DNA from: Cycloclasticus sp. symbiont of Bathymodiolus heckerae
Lineage (GTDB): Bacteria > Pseudomonadota > Gammaproteobacteria > Methylococcales > Cycloclasticaceae
Reading direction: 5' to 3'
DNA length: 64,000 nt
Assembly: GCA_002101235.1 (NCBI GenBank)
Contig: LWTL01000122.1
Coordinates: 1 to 64,000, forward strand
The translations under genes and the position numbers were made by a program. This document shows positions 40,804 through 57,096 of the stretch, piece by piece. The notes under the pieces were generated by a model. It made no database searches. It saw nothing but the letters and a program-made list of their open reading frames with translations, and was not told where the DNA came from. Position 1 is the stretch's first letter, and every line of letters begins with the position of its first letter.

Positions 40804-41460
40804 ATGAGTACCAGTTTTGAATTGGCGGCATCGATTCGTAAGGATCTAGGCAAAGGCGCAACGCGTCGTTTGCGCAAACAAGAAATGGTTCCGGCTGTTA
40901 TTTATGGGGCAGGGAAAGATCCTGTTTCAATAACTTTGGGTCATAATCAGTTAATGCACAGCACTGAGAATGAGGCTTTCTTCTCACATATTTTGTCGAT
41001 TGATGTTGACGGCAAGAAAGAAAAGGTCATTATTAAAGCGCTTCAGCGTCACCCTGCTAAGTCTGTATTGATGCATGCTGATTTCTTACGTATCAGTATG
41101 AAAGAGAAGTTAAAAGTGCATGTCCCTATCCACTTCGTTGGTGAAGATGTGGCTCCGGGTTCTAAAGCAGGTGGTGTGGTAACGCATGATTTGGTTGATA
41201 TTGAAGTGTCGTGTTTACCGAAAGATTTACCTGAATTCGTTGAGGTTGATATTTCAGCGCTTGAGATTGGTGAAAGCTTACATTTATCTGATATTAAGTT
41301 AGCCAAAGGTTTGGAGATTGTTGCGTTAACACACGGCGATGGTCATGATCCGCAGGTTGTGGCAATTCAGGCGAATAGAGCGGTTGAAGAAGAATTGGAA
41401 GTTGATGCTTCTGAAGGTGCTGAAGGTGCTGAAGAGTCAGAAGAGGAGTCAGGCGAGTAA
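40804..41460 (+). CDS. rplY: 50S ribosomal protein L25 (Ctc family, long form)
   Basis: The 218-residue protein binds 5S rRNA. The N-terminal L25 domain (RKDLGKGATRRLRKQEMVPAVIYG) is followed by the Ctc/TL5 C-terminal beta domain (HVPIHFVGEDVAPGSKAGGV) and an acidic tail with a tandem EGAEGAEE repeat. The Ctc long form is longer than E. coli L25 (94). It ends three bases before pth. Confidence 0.94.
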   Translation: MSTSFELAASIRKDLGKGATRRLRKQEMVPAVIYGAGKDPVSITLGHNQLMHSTENEAFFSHILSIDVDGKKEKVIIKALQRHPAKSVLMHADFLRISMKEKLKVHVPIHFVGEDVAPGSKAGGVVTHDLVDIEVSCLPKDLPEFVEVDISALEIGESLHLSDIKLAKGLEIVALTHGDGHDPQVVAIQANRAVEEELEVDASEGAEGAEESEEESGE

Positions 41461-41463
41461 GTT

Positions 41464-42042
41464 GTGATTTCTTTGATTGTCGGTCTGGGTAACCCAGGCG
41501 ATGAGTATAAAAAAACCCGGCATAATGCCGGGTTTTTACTGTTAGATGCTTTGAATGATGGCGTGTCAGGTTGTTTTTCATATGAGTCGCGTTTCAAAGC
41601 TGAGCTATCAAAGTGCGTTATAGCTCGAAAAACAGTGCGCTTATTGAAACCGCAGGCATATATGAATAAAAGCGGTTTGTCGGTATCTTCTTGTGCAAAA
41701 TATTTTGATATACCGGTTGAAGAGATTTTGGTCGTTCATGATGAGTTGGATCTTGAGTCTGGCGTGGTTCGGTTAAAAAAAGCTGGCGGACATGGTGGGC
41801 ACAATGGGTTAAAAGATATTGTTAGTCATTTATCGTCAAAAGATTTTTATAGGTTGAGAATAGGCGTTGGGCACCCGGGTAGTCGAGATGATGTGGCTAA
41901 TTACGTGTTGAGTGCTCCAAATAAGTCAGATGCGGCTCTGGTCGGCATAGCTATCGACTTGGCAGTGGCTGAGATACCTGAAATTTGTCGAGGCGAGTAT
42001 CAGGCGGTTATGCGACGAATGCATACAGAAAAAAATCTTTAG
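41464..42042 (+). CDS. pth: Peptidyl-tRNA hydrolase Pth
   Basis: The 192-residue enzyme recycles peptidyl-tRNA from aborted translation. The catalytic His lies in YKKTRHNAGF, then QAYMNKSGLSV, VVHDELDL and KKAGGHGGHNGLKDI follow. The start is GTG with no strong ribosome-binding site, so coupling to rplY is likely. Codons for KKTRHNAGF form a terminator-like hairpin (see separate entry). Confidence 0.95.
   Translation: MISLIVGLGNPGDEYKKTRHNAGFLLLDALNDGVSGCFSYESRFKAELSKCVIARKTVRLLKPQAYMNKSGLSVSSCAKYFDIPVEEILVVHDELDLESGVVRLKKAGGHGGHNGLKDIVSHLSSKDFYRLRIGVGHPGSRDDVANYVLSAPNKSDAALVGIAIDLAVAEIPEICRGEYQAVMRRMHTEKNL
41511..41537 (+). terminator. Intrinsic-terminator-like hairpin inside the 5' coding part of pth
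   Basis: AAAAACCCGGC (41511-41521) pairs perfectly with GCCGGGTTTTT (41527-41537) around a five-base loop. The shape is canonical: a GC-rich stem followed by five Ts. It lies about 50 bases downstream of the rplY stop and within codons about 16-25 of pth. It could end rplY transcripts or attenuate pth. Confidence 0.6.
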
Positions 42043-54116: not shown

Positions 54117-54125
54117 TACTTTAGC

Positions 54126-54154
54126 TTGTAGTTATTCACAATAAAGATTAAAAT
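54126..54154 (+). promoter_or_regulatory. Possible internal promoter before the alpha block
   Basis: TTGTAG (54126-54131) and TAAAAT (54149-54154), 17 bases apart, lie in the 76-base rpmJ-rpsM gap, one of the few gaps in the ribosomal block. The -35 is poor. The same gap could hold an S4-binding leader, but no pseudoknot could be confirmed by eye. Confidence 0.3.
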
Positions 54155-54192
54155 TGCCGGTTTTCTACTGGCTAAAATAACGGAGAGAATTA

Positions 54193-54549
54193 ATGGCACG
54201 TATTGCTGGTATTAATGTACCTGATAATAAGCACATTGTTATTTCACTGACTTCAATTTATGGCATTGGTTCTACACGATCAAAAGCTATATGCGCAGCA
54301 GTTGGAATTGATACAGCGTCTAAAGTACGAGAACTATCTGAAGATCAGTTAGAGCTTGTGCGTACTGAAGTTGGTAAATACTTAATAGAAGGCGATTTAC
54401 GTCGCGAAGTCTCTATGAATATTAAGCGTTTATTAGACCTAGGTTGTTTCCGTGGTATTCGTCATCGTAGAAGCTTACCTGTTCGTGGTCAACGCACTAA
54501 AACAAACGCTAGAACCCGTAAAGGTCCGCGTAAACCCATTAGAAAATAA
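54193..54549 (+). CDS. rpsM: 30S ribosomal protein S13
   Basis: The 118-residue 30S-head protein has [20 protein letters not shown] and the basic tail [20 protein letters not shown] that contacts P-site tRNA. Confidence 0.97.
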
Positions 54550-57028: not shown

Positions 57029-57042
57029 TCATTTATAAATAG

Positions 57043-57080
57043 CCATTAAAAAAGCCCGGTTAACCGGGCTTTTTTAATGG
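57043..57080. terminator. Bidirectional intrinsic terminator (rplQ / fdxA)
   Basis: A perfect 38-base palindrome: CCATTAAAAAAGCCCGGTT followed directly by its reverse complement. The GC-rich core AGCCCGGTTAACCGGGCT is flanked by A and T runs, so it terminates in both directions between the convergent rplQ and fdxA. Confidence 0.92.
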
Positions 57081-57096
57081 CGGTATTGTTAAAATA

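Follow-up and report, generated by a model that had tools for sequence, protein, structure and literature searches.

A conserved hairpin in the first codons of pth as the probable intrinsic terminator of the upstream rplY transcription unit

Terminator-type hairpins within the reading frames of translation-maintenance genes have been described for arfA of E. coli and brfA of B. subtilis (PMC3989581, PMC8012679). In these genes, as in the pth gene analyzed here, the hairpin can be broken by synonymous changes and the terminated mRNA is, or in the case of pth would be, stopless. According to those reports, the arfA and brfA hairpins are placed late in the frame and leave an active truncated protein under tmRNA control, whereas the pth hairpin occupies codons 16-25 of 192 and the truncated product could not be an enzyme; the combination that marks the arfA/brfA type (a hairpin toward the 3' end that leaves an active truncated protein) is not found in pth. 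RNase III cleavage contributes to the arfA system (PMC3989581), whereas nothing suggests such cleavage for pth. The pyrBI-type attenuator, as outlined in PMC4824070, is an intrinsic terminator that, like the one proposed for pth, falls within ∼135 bp of the start of a translated frame, in this instance upstream of a gene; the pyrBI-type frame encodes a leader peptide and its coupling is set by a pause, whereas the pth frame is an essential gene. In the E. coli W48 reporter from the same paper, the tR2 terminator is 30 bp after the start codon and resembles the pth hairpin in its placement with respect to both the preceding stop codon and the new start codon; the reporter is artificial, whereas the pth hairpin is natural and conserved. 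According to that reporter work, terminators in the first 100 bp of a coding region are efficient in E. coli because the first ribosome has not yet caught up (PMC4824070). Ordinary intergenic rplY terminators, found for example at loci L063, L069, and L172, resemble the pth hairpin in its proposed role of ending the rplY unit and in the AAACCCGC..GCGGGTTT style, and differ in lying between the genes rather than inside the pth frame. Our searches of open-access papers yielded no report of a hairpin or terminator in pth, and in the accessible part of a study of P. aeruginosa 3' ends (PMC8297930) peptidyl-tRNA hydrolase is mentioned only within the reference list.

The window, by which we mean the whole 64-kb stretch of DNA that was analyzed, belongs to a genome of 2.13 Mb and carries the gene order prs - rplY - pth - three tRNA genes - tuf, in which prs and tuf are presumptive names given by recognizing their sequences. 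An initial sequence-only reading had placed a terminator-type hairpin within the early codons of pth, downstream of rplY, and had assigned pth a GTG start; the coordinates and profile matches (TIGR00447, NF004130) agree with this placement, and the GTG, at 41464, is 3 nt beyond the rplY stop codon (41458-41460). The nearest named Pth, with 68% identity, is that of the gammaproteobacterium Cycloclasticus (locus L060).

Table 1. Features of the rplY-pth junction in the window.
Feature	Coordinates	Strand	Remarks
rplY (ribosomal protein bL25)	40804..41460	+	NCBIfam NF004130, 270.9 bits (cut-off 199); mRNA proposed to end at the hairpin
pth (peptidyl-tRNA hydrolase)	41464..42042	+	TIGR00447, 198.2 bits (cut-off 100); GTG start, 192 aa
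Terminator-type hairpin	41511..41537	+	pth codons 16-25: A5 CCCGGC, loop ATAAT, GCCGGG T5
Conserved 7-bp core ACCCGGC / GCCGGGT	41515..41533	+	codons ACC CGG CAT AAT GCC GGG plus T of TTT
U-rich exit, codons TTT TTA CTG	41533..41541	+	T count above synonymous expectation

The hairpin consists of a 5' arm, AAAAACCCGGC (41511-41521), a loop at 41522-41526, and a 3' arm, GCCGGGTTTTT (41527-41537), and its stem is formed by the pth codons AAA AAA ACC CGG CAT AAT GCC GGG TTT TTA. The 11-base stem and its position were thus as originally read, whereas the T5 that had been taken for a separate tail is the outer portion of the 3' arm, as in A-tract/T-tract terminators, and is followed by ACTGTT. The outer A and T of the loop are also able to pair, giving a 12-bp stem with a loop of 3 nt; its 6 G-C pairs provide the GC-rich stem of an intrinsic terminator, and TTTTTACTGTT after GGG provides the U-tract. 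A terminator scan requiring a T run 3' of the stem did not call the pth hairpin because its T run falls within the stem, and none of the 5 matches of Rfam 15 over the window was above the gathering score at 41511-41537. The 64 kb contain just 2 perfect inverted repeats with arms ≥10 bp long and 3-8-nt loops, where Markov resamples predict 0.67 (or 0.07 if arms must reach 12 bp), and the folding z was -4.75 for 121 nt. The suspected rarity of two of its codons was borne out: among the 54 window ORFs, CGG accounts for 51 of 911 Arg codons (5.6%) and GGG for 139 of 1246 Gly codons (11.2%). On the basis of window codon use, the joint probability of the four codons required by the core (ACY, CGG, GCY, and GGG) is ∼0.0014.

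Several other structures were observed in the window. The only perfect inverted repeat longer than the pth hairpin in the 64 kb is an 18-bp repeat at 57042-57081 with A6 and T6 runs, similar in terminator style to the pth hairpin. The gene upstream is presumably rplQ, recognized from its sequence, and because the repeat is placed between rplQ and a convergent ferredoxin-like ORF it is likely a two-way terminator of the alpha operon. A borderline Rfam match to Alpha_RBS, the translational control site of the alpha operon, was seen at 54120-54225 (38.1 bits vs a gathering score of 38). Folding also revealed a further hairpin upstream, across the GLGNPG codons of pth. Read on the minus strand, the pth hairpin runs into a T7 tract that is complementary to the A7 of the Lys codons (41504-41516), and it could thus also stop antisense transcription; the opposite-strand tail in core-bearing loci is less T-rich on average (5.5 vs 6.6 of 9).

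The hairpin was compared with a null in which the codons around TRHNAG were redrawn at each locus from its own codon use while the protein was kept. We examined 273 loci, mostly from draft genomes and counted only when the TRHN motif was present: 57 from the order, 76 from a named set, and 140 from the class (140 of 150 listed rows, among 239 matching genomes of 369). The complete 7-bp core was present in 106 of the 273, namely 52 of 57 in the order, 47 of 140 in the class among the matches listed, and 7 of 76 in the named set, where the null gives 0.46, 1.05, and 0.54, respectively, an excess of ∼100-fold in the order and 45-fold in the class among the matches listed. When 64 synonymous columns were ranked by constraint in the 51 order loci selected as core-bearing, the leaders were GGG (100%, 15% expected), CGG (98%, 17% expected), GCC (94%, 23% expected), and ACC (100%, 32% expected). 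Class loci without the core, among the matches listed, gave no peak of synonymous constraint at the hairpin codons, and many loci without a complete core show little structure there. The sequence-only reading had named hairpin-breaking synonymous changes in close relatives as grounds for refutation, and none emerged from the 16 loci of the window's genus with the TRHN motif, all of which retain the core; the exception is a 17th same-genus locus, L016, in which the core is lost via a Thr-to-Asn replacement plus codon changes. The comparison indicates that the hairpin is real and no accident of codon use, with selection acting at synonymous sites via the minor codons CGG and GGG.

A hairpin in a one-base-shifted register (ACCCGC or ACCCGT, a 6-nt loop, and GCGGGT) was observed at the same codons in loci devoid of the main core (L169-L171, L165, L208, L221, L234, L264, and L206). 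The ACCCGC/GCGGGT register, which uses common codons, occurs in 13 class and named loci where 5.4 are expected (9 class loci among the matches listed, 3.6 expected, and 4 named loci), and 12 of the 13 have a positive terminator score. A pan-bacterial hairpin was not supported by either the phylum sample or nine named records. The motif pattern was matched in 96 of 398 genomes of the phylum sample and, by eye among the matches listed, the core was complete in 5 rows, four from the window's class (G000, G146, G424, and G620) and one from another class (G652). None of the 9 named records checked had a complete core: partial stems were present at the site in the Paenibacillus and Nocardia records, and the hairpin was absent from those of Enterococcus, Bacteroides, E. 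coli, Aeromonas, Halomonas, Acinetobacter, and Acetoanaerobium. As a database observation, the PLSDB records behind L280, L282, L284, and L287 are labelled plasmids; the multi-megabase size of these records and the pth that they carry suggest that they are chromosomes or chromosome parts mislabelled as plasmids.

The 106 complete cores comprise 95 of the CGG/GCC form, 5 of the CGA/GTC form, and 6 with one or more G-U pairs. In the CGA/GTC form the Arg codon and an amino acid (Ala to Val) change together and the pair is restored. Among loci with ACC..GGG, CGA is accompanied by GTC in 5 of 6, the exception being L033 (CGA/GCC), in which the pair is broken. In the outer stem, A opposite the Phe codon occurs with TTT at 61 loci and with TTC at 14, and G opposite it occurs with TTT at 2 and TTC at 20. 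This association has a Fisher value of 8e-10 in core-bearing loci, vs p 0.26 in non-core loci; such values, uncorrected for kinship, are overstated, since 26 transitions in core state are reconstructed on a fast Pth+bL25+Prs tree. On that tree the outer-stem covariation is supported by 5.9 independent pairs with 0 against (sign test, ∼0.03).

Termination was assessed with a score of the d'Aubenton-Carafa type. By this formula the pth hairpin scores 39.4 vs 44.3 for the terminator after rplQ, and the score is above zero in 105 of 106 core-bearing loci vs 6 of 154 others. The number of T residues in the 9-nt exit of core-bearing loci exceeds the synonymous expectation in the order (6.85 vs 6.23), the named set (6.86 vs 6.03), and the class among the matches listed (6.19 vs 5.71). 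Where the third codon after GGG encodes Phe, it is TTT in 86% of order loci (54% expected, n=37) and in 92% of class loci among the matches listed (44% expected, n=38), and this enriched codon is outside the stem; the first Phe codon showed no enrichment in the class set among the matches listed (TTT 51% vs 47% expected). In many GC-richer genomes the U-tract is weaker, consisting of just TTCTGGTTT.

The tie of the hairpin to rplY is supported comparatively, with rplY directly upstream in all 106 core-bearing loci and the complete core in none of the 16 loci lacking rplY upstream (Fisher 3e-4, likewise uncorrected for kinship); one of the latter, L119, carries the hairpin in the shifted register. 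In core-bearing loci the distance from the rplY stop to the end of the GC stem is 68-267 nt (median, 91). A simple detector found a terminator in the rplY-pth gap of 43 of 76 core-less loci with a gap >60 nt, of 1 of 63 core-less loci with a shorter gap, and of 2 of 106 core-bearing loci; 36 of the 43 are from the named set and are largely Burkholderiales. The same detector fired at the pth codons of 100 of 106 core-bearing loci and 1 of 154 others. From these counts we conclude that the termination signal tends to be placed either between the genes or within pth, with neither in many lineages; the function appears dispensable in many lineages, since short-gap core-less loci mostly show a terminator at neither site (62 of the 63 have none in the gap). 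A wider scan of 985 kb of ORFs gave, besides 94 hits at the pth site, 49 sense hairpin-plus-T hits inside ORFs, several of which are the pth hairpin read on its opposite strand. Independent-pair tests were not significant for gap length (3.2 for, 0.8 against), for TTT, or for the rplY neighborhood, the last on a Pth-only tree with few supported branches.

Other explanations were weighed against these data. TRHNAG is partly palindromic, and the stem might be a by-product of protein coding that arises from chance and codon bias. In favor of this account, core-less loci still form weak stems, and the shifted register with its common codons is just ∼2-fold above expectation, but the main core far exceeds the synonymous null in the order and, among the matches listed, in the class, CGG and GGG are minor codons, and changes in the stem are paired; synonymous resampling rules the by-product out for the main register, and we find it scarcely credible. 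Hardly more probable is a protein-bound DNA palindrome. The repeat ACCCGGC-N5-GCCGGGT is palindromic and the core is nearly constant, but the changes from CGG/GCC to CGA/GTC and the G-T pairs that 6 loci show within the core are better suited to RNA pairing, and a binding site would leave the U-tract and the gap terminators unexplained; a DNA-binding palindrome is thus disfavored.

The hairpin could also act as RNA in another role, by stabilizing the 3' end of a processed rplY mRNA, pausing the polymerase, or slowing ribosomes. Retention of the stem even with a weak U-tract is consistent with such roles, but the U-tract enrichment outside the stem, the tie to rplY, and the gap terminators of long-gap loci favor termination, and we regard these roles as unlikely. 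A stronger form of the terminator explanation, in our view rather unlikely, is the mechanism put forward in the sequence-only reading, a translation-coupled attenuator that terminates only when the first pth codons are free of a closely following ribosome, such that pth transcription would report pth initiation or reinitiation from rplY. The hairpin is within the frame and the 3-nt spacing permits coupling; moreover, in E. coli ribosomes can suppress intragenic terminators such as those of narY and rsxC (PMC5021804). Against this stands the efficiency of the early coding-region terminators in the reporters of PMC4824070, which suggests that terminators so placed escape the ribosome.

We consider it probable that the hairpin is an intrinsic (Rho-independent) terminator of the rplY transcription unit, built into the start of pth; the terminator proposed in the sequence-only reading is in this respect well supported. 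Comparison of the loci shows selection on both the hairpin and its U-rich exit, compensatory changes in the stem, linkage to a closely spaced rplY, and the use of an ordinary gap terminator instead at many long-gap loci. From these patterns we infer that RNA would end at the hairpin, that some extent of read-through would occur, and that ribosomes might have an effect on pth. The terminator would lie inside pth because rplY and pth are only a few bases apart. Polymerase leaving rplY would make a stem that starts ∼50 nt past the rplY stop codon, where the last rplY ribosome could no longer reach it and a pth ribosome would probably not yet have arrived, and would often halt on the U-rich codons after the stem; this arrangement gives efficient termination in E. 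coli reporters (PMC4824070). Read-through would supply pth. Because the signal is inside pth, any pth mRNA begun upstream would have to read through it, and pth output would be capped at a fraction of rplY output; a promoter between rplY and pth would not escape it either, since the signal is inside the frame. Terminated RNAs would carry the pth start without a stop codon, and any peptide made from them could not have enzyme activity.

A more far-reaching reading of the terminator, which we think quite unlikely, is that pth carries a conserved coding-embedded attenuator by which Pth supply depends on translation itself, and that termination, ribosome rescue, and Pth form a feedback loop. Ribosomes on stopless pth mRNA would then give non-stop complexes holding short peptidyl-tRNAs, the type of product that Pth helps to recycle, and the need for RNA pairing would limit codon choice, as well as the choice between Ala and Val, in a conserved enzyme motif.

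If the terminator assignment is true, a natural and widespread transcription terminator would be concealed early in the coding sequence of an essential gene, and the 3' end of rplY and a conserved motif of Pth would be encoded by the same bases. The assignment predicts a route to different expression levels of rplY and pth within one operon and cautions against careless synonymous recoding of pth, and the rplY-pth pair would be a ready system for asking whether ribosomes govern terminators early in coding regions.
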